From the NCBI RefSeq assembly GCF_024282095.1, contig NZ_JAMWZS010000031.1, positions 1 through 37,305 on the forward strand: a stretch of 37,305 nt of DNA, written 5' to 3'. Position 1 is the stretch's first letter; every line of letters begins with the position of its first letter. This DNA is from Nitrosomonas sp. (GTDB lineage Bacteria > Pseudomonadota > Gammaproteobacteria > Burkholderiales > Nitrosomonadaceae). A program made the position numbers and the translations under genes. A model generated the notes under the pieces. It was not told the origin of the DNA and did no database searches. It was given only the letters and a program-made list of their open reading frames with translations. Shown in pieces: positions 1-9,655 of this stretch.

Positions 1-378
1 CAAAATTGCATGCTTTCCTACATTATTTCCTTTTTTGTATGGAATGGCCTCTTTGATAAAGTCTTTTGAAGATAAAATCCATAGTTTATCCATGCGCTCA
101 GAGTAGAAAACAAACCAATAATTTAACCGGTATTTATGCGGGATAGCTGAAAAGAATGCAGCCGTGCCAAATTTAACTTCCTTTGAACGGGCTTTGATTT
201 GTACTTCTACAAAAGAACCATCAAGTTTTTTGATTACAGCATCAATGGCATCGTCATCAACCATTGGCAAATACACGTCAAGACCTTCCTTGAGCATTAA
301 GCCAATTACATAATATTCTATTCGCTTACCAAATGCAGCCGAATGTCTGAAGCTTTTATTTATTTTTTCTTCGTTCAT
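1..378 (-). CDS. Small PD-(D/E)XK nuclease-like protein, C-terminus cut by window edge
   Basis: An open frame runs from ATG at 378 to the left edge without a stop (126 codons seen). The ATG overlaps the hsdS stop codon as ATGA, so it is translationally coupled to hsdS. The protein begins MNEEKINKSF. It shows a pattern expected of a PD-(D/E)XK nuclease fold: a conserved-looking Glu at 21, Asp at 46 (in DDAID) and E58-x-Q60-x-K62 (in VEVQIKAR), the variant ExQxK form. The fold assignment is from these motifs only. Small proteins of this kind occur beside restriction systems and as Holliday-junction or intron-type endonucleases. Its role could be cleavage, repair or control of the type I system. 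It is not HsdR itself: no helicase motors are present in the part seen, and hsdR is expected further left. Confidence 0.7.
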   Translation of the reverse strand, partial: MNEEKINKSFRHSAAFGKRIEYYVIGLMLKEGLDVYLPMVDDDAIDAVIKKLDGSFVEVQIKARSKEVKFGTAAFFSAIPHKYRLNYWFVFYSERMDKLWILSSKDFIKEAIPYKKGNNVGKHAIL

Positions 379-1568
379 GCGGCTACTTCTTTTGAAGCTT
401 TCAATTCGCCATTAAATGCTTTTTGAAGGATAGATTTCTTCAGCTCTTCAAGATCATTTATTTTTTGTTGGAAGATGGTTTCTAGTTTTTTGGTTTCGGC
501 ACTGAGGGCATCGAGTTTCTGAACGATAATTCTTTGTTCTTGAATTGATGAAAGATTATAAATTCTAAATGCCCTAATATCTCTCATATTGATATGCTCA
601 ACCGTTGCGCCAGTTGAATGTAAAAGCAATTTTTCTTGCACATCTTTGGATAAAATCAAATATGCCAGATATTTTGAAATAAGCTTGTCTTTTTTCGGTC
701 GAATAAGAACAGTTCTTTGACCTAAACAGCATTCTAGGTTTTCAGGAATAACTGCTATGTTTCCAGCTGGAGCTTCTCTTGCCAAAATCAAATCATCAGC
801 TTTAGGAATTGCTCGTCTTGTCCATTGCAAATATGTTTCATAAGATACCCTATTTACATTGTCTAAAATCAAAGTCCCTTTGCCAATATTTGGTGTTCTG
901 ATTGAAGGATATCCTGTTTCTTGAATTGGTGCAGTTTTGTGTTCGCAATCCACAATTAACTCGCATAGATTGTCTATTGCATTGCTTATCTCACCTTGAA
1001 TTTTAGACTTAAATGTATTCTGCAAATAACTCTCAAAAAGTTCTTTGGCGTTTCTGAGGTTTTGTTCGGCATTGGCTTTTGCCTTAGCTATGGCGGCAAA
1101 GGCTTCATCTAAGATGGCTACGATGCGTTGTTGCTCGGGGAGTGGGGGGAGTGGAACTAATCTAGTTTCAATTGAGTTTTTACCAACATGCATCATAGTT
1201 GCACCAGTTCCATGAGCTGTCTTTATCGCCTCTGTATCCCATTTTAATAATTGAAACAAAAACTCTTTTGTAATTAGTTCGGTATTGGGAATTACCTTCC
1301 AAATATGATAGTGATAAATAACTTTCGCTCCTTCCCAAATTCTGGGACCAAACGAAGCAGACCATGCGTATAGTAAATCTCCATAATCACAATATTTGTC
1401 TTCATCTAATTCTAAGTCTGAGTGATACCAGTGATTATTTGTAAAAAAGTTTCCCACTCTTAAAACAGGATATTTCCCTTGCTGCAATAATTCATGCTTA
1501 GAATAGGCACGGCCATTTATGAATCTACATACTTCCCCTAACTTTTTTATTTCCCAACCTTGCTTCAT
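375..1568 (-). CDS. hsdS: Type I restriction-modification specificity subunit HsdS
   Basis: HsdS chooses the bipartite DNA target for the HsdM methyltransferase and HsdR endonuclease. The 397-aa protein has the normal two-repeat plan. A first target-recognition domain (about 1-140) opens with WEIKKLGEVC and ends at the conserved PLPPLPEQQRIVAILD. A helical spacer (about 150-190) follows. A second recognition domain (about 195-340) ends at a second spacer with SIQEQRIIVQKLDALSAE and a Lys/Glu-rich C-terminal helix. It starts 4 bp inside the end of hsdM (ATGA overlap) and itself overlaps the next gene by 4 bp, so the three form one transcription unit. Codon use is AT-rich relative to the chromosomal genes to the right, in keeping with acquired DNA. 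The target sequence cannot be read from the protein. Confidence 0.93.
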   Translation of the reverse strand: MKQGWEIKKLGEVCRFINGRAYSKHELLQQGKYPVLRVGNFFTNNHWYHSDLELDEDKYCDYGDLLYAWSASFGPRIWEGAKVIYHYHIWKVIPNTELITKEFLFQLLKWDTEAIKTAHGTGATMMHVGKNSIETRLVPLPPLPEQQRIVAILDEAFAAIAKAKANAEQNLRNAKELFESYLQNTFKSKIQGEISNAIDNLCELIVDCEHKTAPIQETGYPSIRTPNIGKGTLILDNVNRVSYETYLQWTRRAIPKADDLILAREAPAGNIAVIPENLECCLGQRTVLIRPKKDKLISKYLAYLILSKDVQEKLLLHSTGATVEHINMRDIRAFRIYNLSSIQEQRIIVQKLDALSAETKKLETIFQQKINDLEELKKSILQKAFNGELKASKEVAA

Positions 1569-3019
1569 ACCAAATCCAAAATTGAGTCTAATATTTCTGC
1601 GCTTTCTTTATCCAAGGCTCTCATTGCTTGCAAAATTTCCTGCGGTTGCCGTAAGGCTGTGGCTTCTTTTTTGTTGGGGTTTTTGGCACTCAGATCAAAG
1701 GTAGTCTGATCAATGTTTTTCGCATTGATGCTCCATGAGTTCTCGCTATCAGCAAAGGTTTTTTGTAATGCTACAAACTCAGATAAATCTTTCTCGTTCA
1801 GCGAATTGGTTTTTCCCAAATTGCGTTCAAGGTTCAATTGGTAAAACCATACTTTCTCGGTAGGTGCGCCTTTCTCAAAAAACAACACCACTGTTTTTAC
1901 GCCTGCACCGGTAAACGTTCCGCCCGGCAAATCCAATACCGTATGCAGATTACAATTTTCCAGTAAGAGTTTACGCAAGCTGATACTGGCATTATCGGTA
2001 TTGCTCAGGAAGGTGTTTTTAATGATCACGCCTGCTTTGCCGCCTGCTTTCAGTATCTTGATAAAATGCTGCAAAAACAATGAAGCGGTTTCGCCTGTCT
2101 TAATCGGAAAGTTTTGCTGCACTTCGGCGCGTTCCTTTCCACCAAAAGGCGGATTGGCAAGCACTACATCGTAACGGTCTTTTTCCTGTATATCAGCGAG
2201 GTTTTCGGCAAGGGTATTGGTATGCACAATGTTGGGAGCTTCCACGCCATGCAGAATCATATTCATGATGCCAATGATATACGCCAGTGACTTTTTTTCT
2301 TTGCCGTAAAAGGTTTTCTTCTGAAGTATCTCGGTTTGACTGGTGCTGAGGCTTTTCTTGTCATTGAGATAATCAAATGCTTCACACAAGAAGCCCGCGC
2401 TTCCTACAGCACCATCATAGATTTTATCGCCAATTTTAGGCGCAACCACTTTTACGATGGTTTTAATCAAAGGGCGTGGCGTGTAGTATTCACCGCCATT
2501 GCGCCCTGCGTTACCCATATTCTTGATCTTATCCTCATAAAGGTGACTCATCTCATGCTTTTCAGCGTGAGTTCTAAATCGCAGTTCATCAATACGGTTA
2601 ATGACTTCCCGCAAATTGTAGCCACTTTGTATGCGGTTCTTCAGTTCGCTAAAAATCTCCCCGACTTTGTATTCAATCGTATCGGCACTGACTGCATCGG
2701 TTTTAAACTTCTTAAGATAGGGGAAAAGGGTACGATCAACAAAGTCTTTGAGGTCATCACCTGTTAATGCTTTGTGGTGGTCTAGCTTGCCTTCTTTGTT
2801 TTTAGGCACAGCCCATACGTTCCATTGGTATTCTGGAGCAATAATGGTTGTGTAAGTTTTTCCTGTGAGTTCGGCTGCTGTTCTTTTGTCTTTTTCCAGA
2901 TCATCCAGATATTTCAAAAACAACACCCAGGATGTTTGCTCTACATAATCAAGTTCGCTGCTGCAACCTGCATCTTTGTGTAGTATGTCGTCTATATTTT
3001 TAAAGGTCTGTTCAAACAT
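1565..3019 (-). CDS. hsdM: Type I restriction-modification DNA methyltransferase HsdM
   Basis: N6-adenine DNA methyltransferase subunit of a type I R-M system, 484 aa. The N-terminal helical HsdM_N domain (about 1-140) is followed by the catalytic domain. AdoMet motif I appears as DGAVGSAGFL at 202-211, a subgroup variant of the commoner DPACGTGGFL, and the catalytic motif IV NPPF is at 289-292. Both key motifs are intact, so the methylase should be active. The N-terminus (FEQTFKNIDDIL...) resembles a subgroup I associate with Bacteroidota, which hints at distant transfer but is inference. It is the first gene of the hsdM-hsdS-nuclease unit and starts just left of an AT-rich non-coding region that must hold its promoter. 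The helicase/nuclease subunit hsdR is not in the window. Confidence 0.94.
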   Translation of the reverse strand: MFEQTFKNIDDILHKDAGCSSELDYVEQTSWVLFLKYLDDLEKDKRTAAELTGKTYTTIIAPEYQWNVWAVPKNKEGKLDHHKALTGDDLKDFVDRTLFPYLKKFKTDAVSADTIEYKVGEIFSELKNRIQSGYNLREVINRIDELRFRTHAEKHEMSHLYEDKIKNMGNAGRNGGEYYTPRPLIKTIVKVVAPKIGDKIYDGAVGSAGFLCEAFDYLNDKKSLSTSQTEILQKKTFYGKEKKSLAYIIGIMNMILHGVEAPNIVHTNTLAENLADIQEKDRYDVVLANPPFGGKERAEVQQNFPIKTGETASLFLQHFIKILKAGGKAGVIIKNTFLSNTDNASISLRKLLLENCNLHTVLDLPGGTFTGAGVKTVVLFFEKGAPTEKVWFYQLNLERNLGKTNSLNEKDLSEFVALQKTFADSENSWSINAKNIDQTTFDLSAKNPNKKEATALRQPQEILQAMRALDKESAEILDSILDLV

Positions 3020-3037
3020 GTATATTTATTTGGTTTC

Positions 3038-3166
3038 TTATTCTTTTTGATTGGCGGGTGTTTGGGCAGATTTTGTAAGGCTGATAATCATACATTTTTC
3101 ATGCTTCTTTTGTAGCTTACTTGATCCATACTTATAACCATTACGGCTTGATTTCGCTATTCTTAC
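3038..3166 (-). pseudogene. Remnant copy of the C-terminus of the small protein at 3586-3792
   Basis: On the minus strand, translation between in-frame stops gives a peptide containing AKSSRNGYKYGSSKLQKKHE. This matches the end of the 68-aa protein at 3586-3792 (ARSSRNAYKHGLGKLQKEIS). At the DNA level 3123-3157 and 3656-3690 are identical at 28 of 35 positions. No start codon or N-terminal half survives, so this is a decayed duplicate. The remnant and the intact copy bracket the origin-like region between them. Confidence 0.65.
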
Positions 3167-3250
3167 TTATTCAATGTACATCAATCGAATTGTAAAAAAT
3201 ATTTCAAGTTATTTAAATTACGGTCGATAACAAAAAACAGATAAGCAAAA

Positions 3251-3526
3251 TTGTAATTATTTACAACTTATTGAATGAAAAAGCATCGCACATAAATAAA
3301 TAATTTACTTGACATTCAAAAGTTACCCACAGTTTGAACAAAATAAAAAATTACATTACATAACTTCACGTCAAGAAGAAAAGTATCCCGTAACTATATG
3401 ATAAATGTCACATAACTAATATGTTAAATAATTAAGCAATCTAAGGAAAATCCTTAGAAATTTACAAGTTAAGCGTTCAGGCAAGATGGTTATACACAAA
3501 GTTATCCACAGAAACTGTGGGTAACT
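3251..3526. other. AT-rich non-coding region with DnaA-box-like sites; possible replication origin of the element
   Basis: No gene lies between hsdM and 3586 apart from the remnant at 3038-3166. The region is very AT-rich. Four sequences match or nearly match the DnaA box TTATNCACA: TTATACACA (3490-3498), TTATCCACA (3502-3510), TTACCCACA on the other strand (3524-3516) and TTACCCACA (3323-3331). Two of them form a 12-bp-arm inverted repeat, AGTTATCCACAG / CTGTGGGTAACT (3500-3511 and 3515-3526), with one mismatch. Other inverted repeats are TCTAAGGA-aaa-TCCTTAGA (3440-3458) and TTGTAA-N4-TTACAA (3251-3266). A run of this kind downstream of a primase/helicase pair fits a replication origin. It may also hold the hsdM promoter. 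Function is inferred. Confidence 0.5.
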
Positions 3527-3585
3527 AAAATTACTCATACTAAATATGATGATATCGTCGGCATTGAAAGCTCTTTCTATAAAAG

Positions 3586-3792
3586 CTAGCTAATTACCTC
3601 AATCGCCTTTCTATGTTCTTTCAATAACCGGCTTATTTCTTTTTGCAGTTTTCCTAATCCGTGCTTATAAGCATTCCGGCTTGATCTGGCCTTGCCTTCG
3701 AATGTTTTAGCGCCTGTCGACTGTTTCCACGGCTGCCAATTCCTGATTAAAGCTGCCTGTTTCAATCGTTCCTCGGGTGTCCAGTGTCGCAT
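3586..3792 (-). CDS. Small hypothetical protein of mobile elements (68 aa)
   Basis: The protein begins MRHWTPEERLKQAALI and carries the block PWKQSTGAKTFEGKARSSRN followed by AYKHG. I associate this Trp/Lys/Arg-rich pattern with small proteins of proteobacterial prophages and integrated elements, with no known function; the basic charge suggests nucleic-acid binding. The start is supported by a GAGG Shine-Dalgarno sequence 6 nt upstream of ATG at 3792. It overlaps the end of the preceding gene (3707-4327) by 86 bp in a different frame. A decayed copy of its C-terminus lies at 3038-3166. Confidence 0.7.
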   Translation of the reverse strand: MRHWTPEERLKQAALIRNWQPWKQSTGAKTFEGKARSSRNAYKHGLGKLQKEISRLLKEHRKAIEVIS

Positions 3793-4327
3793 GTTCAGCC
3801 TCGCTTAATAGTTCGTTTGACGAATTAATTGTTTTTCCTGCGTGCGAAGGGGATTGATTGTTATTAATTTGCTGGTGTCCTTGTGCAATATTGGCTTGCT
3901 TGGCAAAGACTATTGGCGGATTTTTCATTGCTGCCAATACCTCAACGGTTCGGGCGCATTGTGCTTGTGCTTTCAGGGCTAACCGTAAATTTGTTTCCAT
4001 TTGATTCAAATATTCACAATTCGCTGATCGTCTTGCCAGTGTGGTAAATATTCCATTGAGTGAGGCCACTTGCGCGCTTAGTGTCGATTCGAGTTCACTT
4101 AAATCACCCGCAATGATCGTATCTGATTTCACTTTCATCACCTCTATAGCTTCAGTTAAATCTACTTCGCCAATTACTGATTTAGTAAAGCATTGGGTTG
4201 TTATTGTATTTAGTATAGTAGGACATAGCTGCACTTCAGCCATTTTGCCCTGGTCACTTTTATTCTGGTTGACCTTTATATTAATAGATTGGGGGTTTTG
4301 CTTTGTAGGTTTCTTGCTAATCGTCAT
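3707..4327 (-). CDS. Hypothetical protein of the integrated element (206 aa)
   Basis: Not recognised as a named family. The protein begins MTISKKPTKQ and is Gln/Asn/Ala-rich, with a long helical middle section (about 65-145, containing SELESTLSAQVASL and TNLRLALKAQAQ) and a low-complexity tail. No signal peptide or membrane segment is seen. ATG at 4327 is preceded by AAAGGT, an acceptable ribosome-binding site. Its last 29 codons overlap the start of the 68-aa gene out of phase. Both frames stay open and the second gene has its own strong ribosome-binding site, so I accept both as genes. The pair follows the replication genes of the element and may act with them. Confidence 0.65.
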   Translation of the reverse strand: MTISKKPTKQNPQSINIKVNQNKSDQGKMAEVQLCPTILNTITTQCFTKSVIGEVDLTEAIEVMKVKSDTIIAGDLSELESTLSAQVASLNGIFTTLARRSANCEYLNQMETNLRLALKAQAQCARTVEVLAAMKNPPIVFAKQANIAQGHQQINNNQSPSHAGKTINSSNELLSEAEHATLDTRGTIETGSFNQELAAVETVDRR

Positions 4328-4473
4328 AGTTACCTTTATTGATTTGTATGGCGAGAAAAAATTCTCTGTATGTCTCCATGTCAGGTTACTTGAATTTGTT
4401 TCCTGTAGAGATTTACACCCTGGGGGAGTGTCTGCTTAAGTAAGCTATTTTTATACTGCATTTCATTATCAAT

Positions 4474-4839
4474 TTATTGAATCTGCCCTTTCTCAATTAC
4501 CTCTAATAAAAAGAATGCATCATATTTTTCTCGTGGTAAAAGCAATTCAAATGTGTACTGATCTCTGATTGCAATAGCTAGAATTACGCTTGCTGGATCA
4601 AAATTTGAATCACTGATGATTGCCCGCTCTGAACCTGAATTTTCTGCCAGCATAGTTAATACTCTCATCCGCCGTTTTTCCCGTTTGAGTTCTAAGAGAA
4701 TCGCTGGCTTATGTAAGCGAAGTCGTTGAAGCAGTTCCTCCGTTATTTTTTCCGGTGGCGATAATTCAAGGTATTCACCGTCAGCTTTAATACTAAAATC
4801 TTGCTCTCTCAGGTATTTAATAATTTCGATGGCATCCAT
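4474..4839 (-). CDS. TubC N-terminal-domain-like small protein (121 aa)
   Basis: Residues 1-55 fit the TubC_N docking-domain pattern: a short helix, then FSIKADGEYLELSPPEKITE, then a helix ending in HKPAILLEL. In polyketide/peptide synthetases this domain docks subunits, but it is also seen as a stand-alone or fused module in plasmid and integrated-element replication genes. The rest (about 56-121) is an unassigned alpha/beta segment. The ribosome-binding site AAGGA overlaps the end of the upstream ATPase gene, and only 3 bp separate the two genes, so they are co-translated. A protein-docking role with the primase or helicase is inference. Confidence 0.6.
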   Translation of the reverse strand: MDAIEIIKYLREQDFSIKADGEYLELSPPEKITEELLQRLRLHKPAILLELKREKRRMRVLTMLAENSGSERAIISDSNFDPASVILAIAIRDQYTFELLLPREKYDAFFLLEVIEKGQIQ

Positions 4840-4842
4840 TTA

Positions 4843-6669
4843 TTAAATCCTTATAGATTCAGAAAAATTATTTGTTCTAACGGATAAGTCTGAAACGACA
4901 TTGCCAATGTTGCCGTCATTGTCAGATAATATTTTTTTGATTGTGATTGAAATGCCGCGATCACCGTTTATTCGTTCAATGCCACCTTGCACCACACTCA
5001 CACCAATAGAATCAAGTGCCGGTGTTTGCCTTCTGATGGCATCACCTAAACCTCTAGGCGATCGTGGCCAACTCTCCAATGAATGCTGATCATTCTTTAG
5101 TCTGTCATATAGCTGCTTCACGGTTCCATGAAAAACGACTTCGCTATGACAGTTTTCTGCCATTTCACGAACTGCCACGGCAACGGGTGAAGCTTCCATT
5201 GCCCTTGAAACTGATTCGTTTCTGTTTTTCTTGAAGATTCGTTCAAATGCTCCAACCTCATGCCCCATTGCCTGCGCCATCGCCTCACCAAATCTTGCAA
5301 AATCTGCCATCCTTGGTGGTTTGTTTAGTTTGACGTAAGGTAACTTTGCCAAGGTTTTAACGAGAAGGTCTAGCAAAGCACCGAAGAGTTTCGGCCTTGC
5401 TGCTTCAAACTTAGCATTAATTTCGATTTCATCCCGGTAAGTTTCAAGCCTCTGCAATTCAATATTCAGTACACGGTCTGTTAAGTCCTGCGCCGTAATT
5501 ACTACCGGAATCGAATTGATTATCACCGGTCGTTTAACATTGATAGTGGTCTCATCATCATTGGTGTATAAGGTTCTAGTTGAAAAACCGCCACCAGTAG
5601 CCAAAGTACAAAGCGCGTCCTGTTGCTGCGCGGACAGCCGTGAGATATTTTCAAAAGAAACAATCCAATTAGAACCCGCGCTTACATAAATATCTTGAAT
5701 ATCCTTCGGTGCAGCCCGAAGATCACAGCCGCTGGGATCAATTAATTGCCTGATTCGCTTGTGTGTTGATGATTTTGCCGTACCCTGCAAACCATTTAAA
5801 GCCAAGACTGGAAAAGGTGTTTCTGATCTGAATGCTTCCAACATCCATGCTAAAACGAGCAACCTATAATCGCCACTGATATTAAGATATTCCCATAGAT
5901 CATCAATTTTCCCACCAGATACCGGCATTGGAAGGGCAAGCATTGATCCAGGTTTCCAAAACTTAATATGAGATTCAGAATCTAGGTTCCATCCTGAGGC
6001 CGTCACCTTGATGCTTTGCCAGTCCCCATCACCCATAAAGATATAGATAGCATCTTGATGATTTGCCGCTCTTATGTAGACACGTTTCTTGATACCGTCA
6101 TGTTTTGCGTGACCAGTAAGCGTGAAAGCTACCTGCTTGATGGCTGATTCACTTACAGAACGGCCAAACTCTCTGAAGTACTTGTGGCTTACCCATTCAG
6201 TAAATGGTTGTGAACCAATCCGATAGATTCTTTCATCATCTTCAATGAAGGTTTTATCTGCATCTTCATCATGAAGGAGTGGCTTTTCATCTAGGACTTC
6301 AAGAATGATGTCAGCATCAGAATTGCGCTGTCCTTGCCCGTTTTGCATAGGGTCTGTTTGACTATCAATATCTGCAAGCAATATTCCACTGGGTTTATTT
6401 TGCTTGATCGAAACCCTTATATTTGCCCAATCCTTTTGTGAAAGAACTCTGACAGTTTTTACCGCTTTGATAAACTCAGGCTCGAATAATGAACCGGGAT
6501 TTTCTTTGCATTTCGCAATTACTGCATACGCTATCGATAACGCATCTTTCAGGTCTTGTACTTTGGGGTCGATCCCATCATCTAAGTTTACCGCGGCAAG
6601 GTTGGTAACATTGGCAATGTCACCTGAAACTATTTCATCAGGAAAATTATTGTTTTCTTGATTATCCAT
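4843..6669 (-). CDS. P-loop ATPase / putative replicative helicase of the element
   Basis: About 608 aa. A P-loop GLQGTAKSST (about 293-302) is followed by a Walker-B-like stretch WIVSFENIS (about 335-343) and a sensor-like region, the arrangement of primase-linked ATPases of plasmids and phage-like elements. The N-terminal 290 residues include an acidic region and a likely DNA- or primase-contacting domain. I place the start at ATG 6669, not the in-frame TTG at 6687, because GGGAGG lies 8 nt upstream of the ATG. The gene then overlaps the primase by 8 bp. It probably unwinds or melts DNA for the element's own replication. Exact superfamily (SF3-like, DnaB-like or a DUF-type ATPase) cannot be settled by eye. 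Confidence 0.75.
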   Translation of the reverse strand: MDNQENNNFPDEIVSGDIANVTNLAAVNLDDGIDPKVQDLKDALSIAYAVIAKCKENPGSLFEPEFIKAVKTVRVLSQKDWANIRVSIKQNKPSGILLADIDSQTDPMQNGQGQRNSDADIILEVLDEKPLLHDEDADKTFIEDDERIYRIGSQPFTEWVSHKYFREFGRSVSESAIKQVAFTLTGHAKHDGIKKRVYIRAANHQDAIYIFMGDGDWQSIKVTASGWNLDSESHIKFWKPGSMLALPMPVSGGKIDDLWEYLNISGDYRLLVLAWMLEAFRSETPFPVLALNGLQGTAKSSTHKRIRQLIDPSGCDLRAAPKDIQDIYVSAGSNWIVSFENISRLSAQQQDALCTLATGGGFSTRTLYTNDDETTINVKRPVIINSIPVVITAQDLTDRVLNIELQRLETYRDEIEINAKFEAARPKLFGALLDLLVKTLAKLPYVKLNKPPRMADFARFGEAMAQAMGHEVGAFERIFKKNRNESVSRAMEASPVAVAVREMAENCHSEVVFHGTVKQLYDRLKNDQHSLESWPRSPRGLGDAIRRQTPALDSIGVSVVQGGIERINGDRGISITIKKILSDNDGNIGNVVSDLSVRTNNFSESIRI

Positions 6670-7582
6670 GTTGGTAACCTCCCGCAATCAAATCATTCCA
6701 GTCTTTTCCTGGAAGTGGCGGAATTAGCACTTTTCCACCAATAGCTAATGCAGCCTCTTTTGCTTTGTCTTGACCAACACTAGAGAGATCATTATCGCCA
6801 CAAATAATAATCTCAACATCTGGTGATAGCTCACGGATATTCTTGGCTACTGGTAAGAGATTGCCAGCATCAAACGCAACAATTACACGCTGTCCAGAAT
6901 CTTCATAAAGACTGGCACCAGTAGCGAACCCTTCACAGATCAATAGCTTTTCTGATAAATCACCGATGATATGAAAGCAGCCGCGCTTCCTTCCACCAGA
7001 TAAAAATAATTTTCTTTCACCCTCTAGCGAGATGAATTGCAGATTCACCAGTTGATCCGATTCGTTATAGATAGGAATTACCAATGCATGACGATAGAGT
7101 CTTGCGCTATGCGGCTGAATGCGTTTCTTGATTAAGTAGGGATGATCCTCTTGCTGGGTGATTGGTGTGGATTTATCCCAGATATAAATCGCCTTCTTCG
7201 CGGCTGCTTCTTGTTTCTGGTGTATTTCCGCCTCACGCTGCCTCTTAGCTTCCTTGATCTGCTTACTCAGTGCATAGGAAATACGGGAATTGCCGTTAAA
7301 CCTCCATGTTTGAGATATCCCGGATTTGTAATCCATAAACCAGCCTGCTGGGCATTTATCTGCATGAAGAACATACGCGCCGTTTTTGCTTCCGCGTTTG
7401 TGGCTTTCTATATGGAATCTATGAAGTTTGCTATCCGCAATAATCTCGCCAGAATAGTTAATTCCCGCGGATTGTATAGCTTCTAGAAATTGTAAATCTA
7501 TACCAATATTGGTATAATTTACGTACTGATTAAATGCCTTACCTGAAGCCACCTGCCCGGTGGCTTTTGCATTTCTGAGCAT
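6662..7582 (-). CDS. Toprim-domain DNA primase-like protein
   Basis: 306 aa. The C-terminal half is a Toprim domain: LLICEGFATG with the catalytic Glu at 217, and IIICGDNDLS with D263-x-D265, ending in the GKDWNDL motif typical of plasmid and phage primases. The middle (about 105-130) is a charged helix. No CHC2-type zinc finger is visible at the N-terminus, so template recognition may depend on another protein. ATG at 7582 has a strong GGAGGGG ribosome-binding site that overlaps the end of the AlpA-like gene, and the stop overlaps the ATPase start. Primase plus ATPase as adjacent coupled genes is the usual replication core of satellite-type elements. Confidence 0.85.
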   Translation of the reverse strand: MLRNAKATGQVASGKAFNQYVNYTNIGIDLQFLEAIQSAGINYSGEIIADSKLHRFHIESHKRGSKNGAYVLHADKCPAGWFMDYKSGISQTWRFNGNSRISYALSKQIKEAKRQREAEIHQKQEAAAKKAIYIWDKSTPITQQEDHPYLIKKRIQPHSARLYRHALVIPIYNESDQLVNLQFISLEGERKLFLSGGRKRGCFHIIGDLSEKLLICEGFATGASLYEDSGQRVIVAFDAGNLLPVAKNIRELSPDVEIIICGDNDLSSVGQDKAKEAALAIGGKVLIPPLPGKDWNDLIAGGYQHG

Positions 7583-7585
7583 AGC

Positions 7586-7816
7586 TTACCCCTCCACCCG
7601 ATAGTTGATTGGGTCGGCCAGCCATTTATGCAGTTCTGCGTTATCATAGAAGGTGCAGCGGATGCCCATTCTTTCCGGTTGCGGTGCTTTGCCTTCTAAT
7701 GATAATTGTCTGAATTTCTCACGAGAAACGGGACTGAATGGGGCAAATTTTTTATAGCGACTTTTGCCCGTAAGAGGTAACACTTCAGGTGTTACACCTG
7801 ATTTATTTTTATTCAT
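7586..7816 (-). CDS. AlpA-like / MerR-type helix-turn-helix regulator (76 aa)
   Basis: The segment SPVSREKFRQLSLEGKAP followed by PERMG, FYDNAELHKWL and a short tail is the AlpA/excisionase-type winged helix pattern: a helix-turn-helix, a wing and a conserved Trp near the end. In satellites such as P4 and CP4-57, AlpA-type proteins activate or assist excision. ATG at 7816 is preceded by AAAGGAG. It is first in the operon with primase and ATPase (4 bp to the primase), so it may also set replication levels. The palindromes in 7940-8050 upstream are candidate binding sites. Confidence 0.8.
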   Translation of the reverse strand: MNKNKSGVTPEVLPLTGKSRYKKFAPFSPVSREKFRQLSLEGKAPQPERMGIRCTFYDNAELHKWLADPINYRVEG

Positions 7817-7911
7817 TTAAGCTCCTTTGATTAACAAATGATATTTATCAATCAGGTAGCTGTTTCCTCTATCCAGCCTTGTTCATTTCTTGTCTATTCT
7901 TTAAACAATTA

Positions 7912-7940
7912 TTGACAAGTAATGTTTAAATGTTTATATT
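7912..7940 (+). promoter_or_regulatory. Sigma-70-like promoter pointing right, towards the integrase 3' end
   Basis: TTGACA (7912-7917), a 17-bp spacer and TATATT (7935-7940) form a near-consensus promoter. An inverted repeat ACTCAT-N6-ATGAGT (7945-7962) covers the predicted start point, as an operator would. No convincing plus-strand gene follows, so the transcript would run antisense to the integrase. The stretch 7817-8172 is otherwise without genes. AT-rich DNA gives chance matches, hence the low score. Confidence 0.4.
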
Positions 7941-8017
7941 AATAACTCATCGCCAAATGAGTAATACGTAACATAAATAAGATGTAAAGAAGCAAACATA
8001 TACCTGTATTAGCTTTT

Positions 8018-8046
8018 AATCATTAAAGAACAGTTCTTTGATGATT
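8018..8046. promoter_or_regulatory. 29-bp hyphenated palindrome, likely regulator or recombinase site
   Basis: Arms of 14 bp (8018-8031 and 8033-8046), AATCATTAAAGAAC and GTTCTTTGATGATT, pair at 13 of 14 positions around a single central base. It lies between the integrase 3' end and the AlpA-like gene in a 356-bp gene-free stretch (7817-8172). A dimeric repressor or the AlpA-like protein is the likeliest ligand. No U-run follows, so a terminator is less likely. Confidence 0.5.
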
Positions 8047-8172
8047 TTTTGCTATTATAAAATATCTGTTGCTAATAATAGCAAACTACAATGCATCGCG
8101 CATGGTTTGTGGCAAAAAAACCTCCTTATCTGTATCGCAATTTTCTTGCAAACTCCTACAGACACAAGAAAA

Positions 8173-9363
8173 CTATTTTTTCCCAGTTTTTATTGCATCT
8201 AAATAATCCGCCCAATCCTGCATCAATCGCGCCCGTGGTTCAAGATATAAAGCATGGTTATAGCTTGCTGATACTTGGTTGCGTTCTGCGTGTGCCAGTT
8301 GTAATTCAATATGATCATGGTTATAGCCGCGCTCATGAAGGATTGTTGAAGCTATTCCTCTGAATCCGTGGCCAGTCATGCGGGAGTGATACCCAAGTCG
8401 ATAAAGAGCATACAAAATGGTGTTGTTGCTCATTGACTTGCCATCCCTGCGTTCACTTGGAAATAGCAAGATTTGATCGGCTGCCAAATTCTTGATTTTA
8501 TCCAATATGGCAATTGCCTGATCGGATAGGGGCACAATATGCGGTGTTTTCATCTTCATGCGCTCTGCTGGTATGCGCCACAGTTTATTATCCAGTTCTA
8601 TTTCATCCCATCTGGCACCAATTAATTCACTGGTACGCACAAAAGTAAATGCCATCAATTGCAGCGCAAGCTTGGTTAATGGCTGCCCATCATAGGTATC
8701 AATCTTTTGGAGTAGTTCGGGTAATTCTTTTTGATCCAACCTTGCATAGTTGTTTTTCTTGCTTGGTTTCAGTACATCGGAAGGTTTTATATCTGCGGCT
8801 GGATTGCGTTCTGCCAGTCCATGAGCTACAGCATAGCGCATGATCTGACCACATGTTGTTAATGCACGTTTGGCAATATCTAAAGCACCGCGTGATTCGA
8901 TCTTTTTTATCACCATAATCAATATAGGTGCGGTGATTTCGGCAATAGACTTTTTGCCGATAATAGGAAATATATCAGCTTGCAGTCGCCTGATCGTATA
9001 ACCGGCATGTCGTTCAGTTTGACCTAATTTCCAATGATCCCACCAAAGACGAGCGATAGATTCAAAACTATTTTCAGTCGCCAATGCTTCCAGTTGCTTT
9101 TGTTCTTGGCGGTGTTGGGAAGGATCAACGCCCTGCGCGAGTAATTCTTTGAAGCGCGTTAACCTAATACGTGCTTCTTTTAATGTCACATCAGGATAAA
9201 CGCCCATAGAGAGCATTTTAGCTTTGCCACTAAAGCGATAACGATATCGCCACCATTTAGCACTAGAAGTTTGCACCAATAGAACAAGTCCATGACCATC
9301 TGGAAGAGAGTAGGGTTTCGCTTTGGGTTTTGCAGCTTTAATGATTGGGTCAGTCAGTTTCAT
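8173..9363 (-). CDS. P4-type tyrosine integrase
   Basis: Site-specific recombinase of 396 aa. The N-terminal DUF4102 arm-binding domain (about 1-90, with LPDGHGLVLLV and GVYPDVTLKEAR) is followed by a SAM-like core-binding domain (about 95-190) and the catalytic domain. Catalytic residues are visible: R243 (in TFVRTSELIGARW), H332 and R335 (in GHGFRG), H358 (in QLAHAE) and Tyr368 (in SASYNHA). The set is complete, so it should be active. ATG at 9363 has GAGGGTG 7 nt upstream. Its 5' end faces the tRNA-Ser gene, and the 36-103 bp upstream holds repeated sites that fit integrase arm binding. This family typically integrates into tRNA 3' ends. Confidence 0.95.
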   Translation of the reverse strand: MKLTDPIIKAAKPKAKPYSLPDGHGLVLLVQTSSAKWWRYRYRFSGKAKMLSMGVYPDVTLKEARIRLTRFKELLAQGVDPSQHRQEQKQLEALATENSFESIARLWWDHWKLGQTERHAGYTIRRLQADIFPIIGKKSIAEITAPILIMVIKKIESRGALDIAKRALTTCGQIMRYAVAHGLAERNPAADIKPSDVLKPSKKNNYARLDQKELPELLQKIDTYDGQPLTKLALQLMAFTFVRTSELIGARWDEIELDNKLWRIPAERMKMKTPHIVPLSDQAIAILDKIKNLAADQILLFPSERRDGKSMSNNTILYALYRLGYHSRMTGHGFRGIASTILHERGYNHDHIELQLAHAERNQVSASYNHALYLEPRARLMQDWADYLDAIKTGKK

Positions 9364-9399
9364 GTGAAAACACCCTCAACCAGTAGGTTACATAAATAT

Positions 9400-9467
9400 G
9401 TGAGTAACTTTCTAGTGAGTATTATAGTTACTCACCAACTTACTCACAAATTTATCTTGTTACTCAC
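9400..9467. repeat. Five 9-bp repeats between integrase and tRNA; putative arm-type integrase sites
   Basis: GTGAGTAAC (9400-9408) and GTGAGTATT (9415-9423) are followed by three copies on the opposite strand: GTTACTCAC (9427-9435), CTTACTCAC (9439-9447) and GTTACTCAC (9459-9467). The shared core is TTACTCA / TGAGTAA. Spacing between the last sites is 12 and 20 bp. The core recurs singly at 3531-3537 and 7958-7964. The place, next to both the integrase start and the tRNA attachment site, fits arm-type binding sites, which may also let integrase repress its own promoter. Confidence 0.65.
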
Positions 9468-9493
9468 ATTTCACATGATTGACTATGGTTAAC

Positions 9494-9526
9494 AAAAAAC
9501 CCGCTAAACTTATCATTTATGCGGGT
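9494..9526 (-). terminator. Probable rho-independent terminator after tRNA-Ser
   Basis: Read on the minus strand, ACCCGC, a 16-nt loop and GCGGGT are followed directly by a run of T (9500-9494). It starts about 37 nt beyond the tRNA 3' end and would stop the tRNA transcript before the integrase region. The loop is long, so strength is uncertain. Confidence 0.55.
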
Positions 9527-9562
9527 CTTGTTGGTGTTGCTGGGTGTCTATTGGTAAATAAG

Positions 9563-9655
9563 TGGCGGAGAGGATGGGATTCGAACCCATGTGCCAAGTT
9601 ACCCTGACCAACTGATTTCGAGTCAGCGCCGTTATAGCCGCTTCGGTACCTCTCC
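9563..9655 (-). tRNA. tRNA-Ser, anticodon CGA
   Basis: The 5' end GGAGAGG (9655-9649) pairs with CCTCTCC (9573-9567); discriminator G and an encoded CCA follow (to 9563). The anticodon arm is CTGA-CTCGAAA-TCAG, giving anticodon CGA for UCG codons. A long variable arm is present as in all tRNA-Ser, and the T arm reads GGGTTCGAATCCC. The gene is complete although an element is inserted at its 3' side, as expected if the crossover restores the 3' end. It lies 74 bp after rpoH. Confidence 0.96.

Follow-up and report, generated by a model that had tools for sequence, protein, structure and literature searches.

The window analyzed here is the whole of a 37,305-base contig from a 2.8-Mb draft genome of Nitrosomonas sp., and its left part carries a tyrosine integrase beside a tRNA-Ser gene, a Toprim primase, an ATPase-like protein and type I restriction genes, the contents of an integrated island (Table 1). 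The ATPase-like protein has no match in Pfam, NCBIfam, PHROGs or the PDB sequences; a P-loop-like motif was seen in it by eye, and a relative with 81% identity occurs in a Nitrosomonas metagenome-assembled genome. Between the restriction genes and the primase side lies a noncoding module of about 255 bp, adjoined by a small ORF of 68 residues with no family match in NCBIfam or PHROGs. Beyond this is a 206-residue ORF, relatives of which, as judged by eye, also adjoin copies of the module in two other genomes (G020 and G022). On the opposite side, directly after hsdS, an ORF at 1-378 is cut by the contig start and shows a weak match to PDDEXK_5 below the curated cut-off. On either side of the module stands one copy of a 50-nt direct repeat (3108-3157 and 3641-3690), 78% identical and comprising a portion of the 68-aa ORF, a sign of rearrangement. 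The module likely belongs to the tRNA-Ser island, the left end of which lies beyond the contig start; we place the window copy on or beside the island.

Table 1. Features of the window around the module, with DnaA-box pairs adjoining dnaA at other Nitrosomonas loci
Feature	Position	Strand	Remarks
Type I restriction genes	375-3019	-	hsdM 1565-3019, hsdS 375-1568; other side of the module from the ORFs and primase
Whole conserved module (DARS-like)	3305-3563	+	31-copy alignment; model match 3305-3556; right edge by eye
Distal (fourth) DnaA-box-like site TTACCCACA	3323-3331	+	-167 from box III
IHF-binding-site match TAACTATATGATA	3391-3403	-	1 mismatch; -99 from box III
Fis-consensus-like site GTTAAATAATTAAGC	3423-3437	+	1 mismatch; -67 from box III
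DnaA box III equivalent TTATACACA	3490-3498	+	
DnaA box II equivalent TTATCCACA	3502-3510	+	3 bp after box III
DnaA box I equivalent TTACCCACA	3516-3524	-	head to head with box II across 5 bp
68-aa ORF adjoining the module	3586-3792	-	ORF list
206-aa ORF	3707-4327	-	without family match
Island ATPase-like protein	4843-6687	-	614 aa; without family match
Toprim primase	6662-7582	-	PF13362, phrog_2249
Tyrosine integrase	8173-9363	-	adjoins tRNA-Ser
tRNA-Ser(cga)	9563-9655	-	presumed island attachment gene
dnaA-adjacent box pair, L175	9694-9737		
dnaA-adjacent box pair, L173	10748-10791		
dnaA-adjacent box pair, L147	1452-1495		

The original prediction held this to be an AT-rich, gene-free stretch with four DnaA-box-like sites, and both points stand: the four boxes are present where it placed them, and the stretch from 3166 to 3585 has 27% G+C against 45% for the window, with no ORF above 40 aa and with the window's second least stable 100-bp duplex region. 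Two of the boxes had been described as 12 bp apart, which is the distance from start to start, the actual spacer being 3 bp. One mismatch interrupts the inverted repeat AGTTATCCACAG-aaa-CTGTGGGTAACT, and a perfect 15-bp inverted repeat (3321-3335 and 3512-3526) links the first box to the last. The conserved unit (approximately 3305-3563) is larger than the region first described; it begins with CTTGACATT at 3308 and runs from the distal box through an IHF site and a Fis-like site to boxes III, II and I, the last of which has one mismatch to TTWTNCACA. In a fixed 9-3-9-5-9 geometry the three clustered boxes match 23 of 24 positions, a score that none of 2000 dinucleotide shuffles of 3166-3585 reaches (maximum 20); elsewhere in the window the score does not exceed 18. 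A loose count of boxes gives a weaker excess, the six observed being reached by 13 of the 2000 shuffles. The boxes are thus clustered beyond chance and, as set out below, also conserved, which supports the earlier view that they point to the host DnaA. We rejected a structured RNA, since 0 of 11 predicted pairs showed changes on both sides and there was no Rfam match in 2900-4500.

The module is widespread in the genus. By blastn, with at most six candidates scored in most genomes, the window DNA from 3100 to 3800 matches 64 of 85 Nitrosomonas genomes. Thirty-four copies were gathered by similarity to the core, and 31 of these (all but those at L045 11200, L046 6432 and L051 8056) were aligned to build a sequence-only model, which at an E-value of 0.001 or less finds matches in 84 of the 85 genomes: at least two in 79, a single one in five and none in G014. 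Fourteen mostly complete genomes have between two and nine strong copies each (matches of at least 40 bits): nine in G069, seven in G020, five in G028, four each in G044, G061, G067, G029 and G046, three in G060, and two each in G006, G045, G035, G059 and G053. The genome of the window itself has at least four copies, namely the window copy (23/24), those on contigs C79 and C8 (24 each) and one on C77 at a site between xseA and exbB (21), and the model search counts five. Across the 31 aligned copies the core matches 22/24 or better in 29, an IHF site with at most one mismatch is present in 30 and a Fis-like site with at most one mismatch in 29, and the CCACA of the distal box is kept at its place in all. 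The nine diverged copies of G069 retain both protein sites at the same places, IHF with no mismatch in seven and one mismatch in two, Fis with no mismatch in eight and one in the ninth. The same genome also has a second class of eight core-bearing copies (L129-L136), which share an upstream stretch around GCTTTAGCATCTTTTT and have neither an IHF nor a Fis site where these normally occur.

Such abundance raises the possibility of a non-functional, MITE-like dispersed repeat in which the DnaA boxes occur by chance. The module contains no gene, G069 has up to 20 model matches if weak and strong ones are taken together, and a 458-bp copy, 92% identical to that of the window, lies in another setting in G008. 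Against this, the motifs are kept while the remainder of the sequence diverges, terminal repeats were not seen by eye at the module edges, and the same intergenic sites are occupied in several families, making a mere repeat very improbable. The sites in question are two. Of the 12 Nitrosomonas loci of the xseA site, inspected by eye, all have ExbB on one flank and 10 have XseA on the opposite flank; in the genome of the window and in G273 both genes are confirmed by Pfam. Copies in other families lie upstream of xseA or near hemE/priA, as judged by eye apart from hemE and priA in G142 and hemE in G331, which are confirmed by Pfam.

The genomic settings also bear on the idea that the module is a replication origin. 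In the original prediction the element was a self-replicating, DnaA-dependent satellite; in such a scheme DnaA, together with the island primase and ATPase, would open the AT-rich stretch and replicate the excised island. The boxes, the very unstable DNA, the adjacent primase and ATPase-like genes and the integrase at a tRNA gene are all in keeping with it. However, the satellite claim finds no support in the distribution of the module, which is present in 84 of 85 genomes and in most cases occupies intergenic chromosomal DNA with no relation to such islands. Nor did the region prove conserved in related elements: we fetched 14 loci that encode a relative of the ATPase, at some 12 separate places, and none has the core (flanks of at most 1.5 kb, several contigs ending early), the best score there being 17/24. 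Further, the island part of the window (1-9600) contains only two-copy repeats and no iteron array, and the box geometry is that of the E. coli DnaA-reactivating sites (DARS) rather than any oriC-like one. We therefore regard an island origin as improbable. An origin of plasmid or phage derivation was likewise discarded, as 3300-3800 has no blastn match in PLSDB or INPHARED.

The module as a direct chromosomal oriC is ruled against by its position and box geometry. In G020 the sampled GC skew switches sign at dnaA and again around 1.7-1.9 Mb, which places the copies of that genome, at 0.52-0.53, 1.07, 1.16 and 1.59 Mb, away from the origin. Separately, three Nitrosomonas genomes have a pair of divergently oriented DnaA boxes, 35 bp apart, immediately beyond the 3' end of dnaA (Table 1); this pair is a better candidate for oriC than the module. 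The intergenic position and TTGACA-like start of the module could instead speak for a promoter of neighboring genes under the control of DnaA and IHF, but the neighbors and their orientations vary widely and the copy at L040 sits between converging genes (a secF-like gene and an antisense-facing one), so that we consider this reading extremely improbable.

DARS were worked out in E. coli, which has two such loci. According to the portions of PMC10380432 and PMC8682772 available, the DARS core is defined by three DnaA boxes, and what marks these sites and sets them apart from oriC is the head-to-head placement of boxes I and II. Such a core, with boxes I and II head to head and box III beside II, is present in the window at 3490/3502/3516. 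As read from the K-12 sequence, DARS1 and DARS2 both run + box, 5 bp, - box, 3 bp, - box, and the Nitrosomonas trio has the same arrangement on the other strand. Hence, the module shares with DARS2 (rppH-mutH region) and DARS1 (bioD-uvrB region) a three-box core of identical spacing and orientation. The intergenic location away from oriC that is typical of DARS is likewise seen: 25 of 25 cores found by the pattern search described below are intergenic, and the copies of G020 lie away from dnaA. When the Nitrosomonas model is run on four E. coli loci, DARS2 scores best (24.9 bits), followed by DARS1 (20.3), datA (12.4) and oriC (10.7), with further places at DARS2 (18.1) and datA (11.1).

The arm upstream of the core differs from that of DARS2 and has a datA-like spacing. 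Like DARS2, the module has an IHF site at a set place beyond the box III end of the core. This site is oriented as in DARS2, at a distance 9-12 bp greater (-99 in the window and -99 to -96 overall, vs -87 in E. coli); DARS1, in contrast, has no IHF match within 200 bp upstream. The Fis-like site of the module, at -67, is nearer to the core than IHF is; DARS2 has the two in the opposite order, as we infer from the available part of PMC4245941. Given this difference in order, we file the module under DARS and not under DARS2, from which it also differs in its chromosomal site and in having several copies per genome. The available text of PMC4245941 calls IHF broadly conserved. As for Fis, the genome of the window encodes an 86-aa Fis-like protein directly behind dusB, which passes the Pfam cut-off and scores too low for either of the NCBI Fis cut-offs (93.0 against 122 and 87.7 against 99). 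With E. coli oriC the module has DnaA boxes and AT-rich DNA in common, but not the box arrangement, and the Nitrosomonas origin maps to dnaA.

A rather unlikely reading is that the module is a datA-like site, at which IHF-assisted hydrolysis of DnaA-bound ATP, or plain titration of DnaA, would lower initiation. The distal box and IHF site stand at nearly the same distances and in the same orientations as in E. coli datA (-167 and -99 from box III, the IHF site ranging to -96, vs -162 and -97), a fit at least as good as that to DARS, and the left half of the model also aligns at datA (11.1 bits). However, the spacing match was seen only after DARS had been chosen and so counts as a lead; datA lacks the three-box core with 3/5 spacing (18/24, 3/5 not being its best spacing), and the DARS loci score higher with the model. 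As such a lead, the box-IHF-box distances would leave room for a datA-like or two-way function.

We examined the spacing of the core on a grid of 121 spacer pairs, where the loci were found with the model and are biased towards 3/5. Within this limit, 3/5 is surpassed by no other spacing in any of the 13 dispersed copies, in 10 of 12 Nitrosomonas copies at the xseA site or in any of the 32 loci from other families; in E. coli it is best for DARS1, ties for best at DARS2 and is outscored by other spacings at datA and oriC. The 32 loci were fetched from an order-wide model search matching 256 of 300 genomes, in which the E-values are rough, the model is AT-rich and not all matches are counted as DARS. 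A less biased search let each spacer of the box pattern vary between 0 and 10 bp over 399 genomes of the order: it returned 25 sites in 22 genomes, every one with 3/5 spacing and every one outside all kept ORFs of 80 aa or more, while a control with the pattern reversed gave no match in the same 399 genomes. Fifteen of the sites are from outside Nitrosomonas, representing 10 families, some being close relatives of each other. Among these 15, 10 have an IHF match at -99 to -96 with no more than one mismatch (shuffles: mean 0.14, maximum 2), 8 have a Fis match at -67 to -65 (mean 0.45, maximum 5), where loose Fis matches are inflated by the AT-rich background, and 7 have a distal + box at -172 to -158 (mean 0.70, maximum 4), or 13 at -177 to -154, a wider range picked post hoc. 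Outside the order, in 398 genomes of the phylum, the pattern is weaker: nine of the 20 sites have 3/5 spacing, a near-identical pair among them, and the others are mostly shorter.

Viral sequences presented a different picture. In IMG/VR 31 stretches match the 3/5 core and none the swapped 5/3 core; with free spacers, among the matches listed (86 unique sites), at least 20 have 2/3, at least 14 have 3/3 and at least 5 have 3/5 spacing. No IHF match with at most one mismatch was found at -99 to -96 in the IMG/VR stretches. Given these other spacings, dominant among the matches listed, and the absence of IHF at that place, we rejected a phage-borne DARS. The many DnaA-box trios with 2/3 or 3/3 spacing on viral contigs (L276-L349), again among the matches listed, are possibly phage origins or DnaA sinks.

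Taken together, the architecture of the module, its conservation and spacing, its position off the origin and the Fis-like gene behind dusB point to a DnaA-reactivating site of the DARS type, present in multiple copies in Nitrosomonas, for which we predict an ADP-releasing activity. We hold this to be probable, with a real margin for error: the datA-like spacing noted above weighs against it, as does the single mismatch in each of box I, the IHF site and the Fis site of the window copy. The departures from DARS2 in Fis order and IHF distance, the low scores of the Fis-like protein and the mixed spacings outside the order also count against it. By analogy to the mechanism given in the accessible parts of PMC10380432, PMC8682772 and PMC4245941, ADP-DnaA would bind boxes III, II and I, and the head-to-head placement of II and I would let the AAA+ domains of two DnaA molecules meet, with release of the ADP. 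IHF, and probably Fis, may bend or stabilize the upstream arm and draw in the DnaA bound at the distal box, which would render the site conditional. The freed DnaA could then take up ATP and initiate at the chromosomal oriC. The Nitrosomonas copies occupy fixed chromosomal sites and also accessory DNA. We infer DnaA binding, ADP release and an effect on timing from the sequence features; a replication-timing switch is more likely than an origin belonging to the island itself.

The available part of PMC4245941 links the DARS2 core to relatives of E. coli among the gamma-proteobacteria, and a review, in the portion at hand, speaks of DARS2 conservation in some E. coli-proximal beta or gamma species (PMC5742627); DARS-like sequences are mentioned for V. 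cholerae in an excerpt of PMC6090056. Among open-licence papers we found none on DARS in Nitrosomonas or on the xseA site. One speculative possibility, which we rate as doubtful, is that the module combines a DARS core with a datA-like box-IHF-box arm that shares box III, and that it reflects an ancestral DnaA switch working in both directions, of which datA and DARS2 would be later, separate offshoots. It would then have multiplied in Nitrosomonas, with some copies on accessory DNA shifting host initiation in favor of that DNA. A conserved, multicopy module of the DARS type with relatives in other families would make reactivation sites older and more variable than the E. coli model suggests. 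Its copy number and the order of its IHF and Fis sites would serve as a natural experiment, and it would raise the question of whether mobile DNA carries its own DnaA switch.
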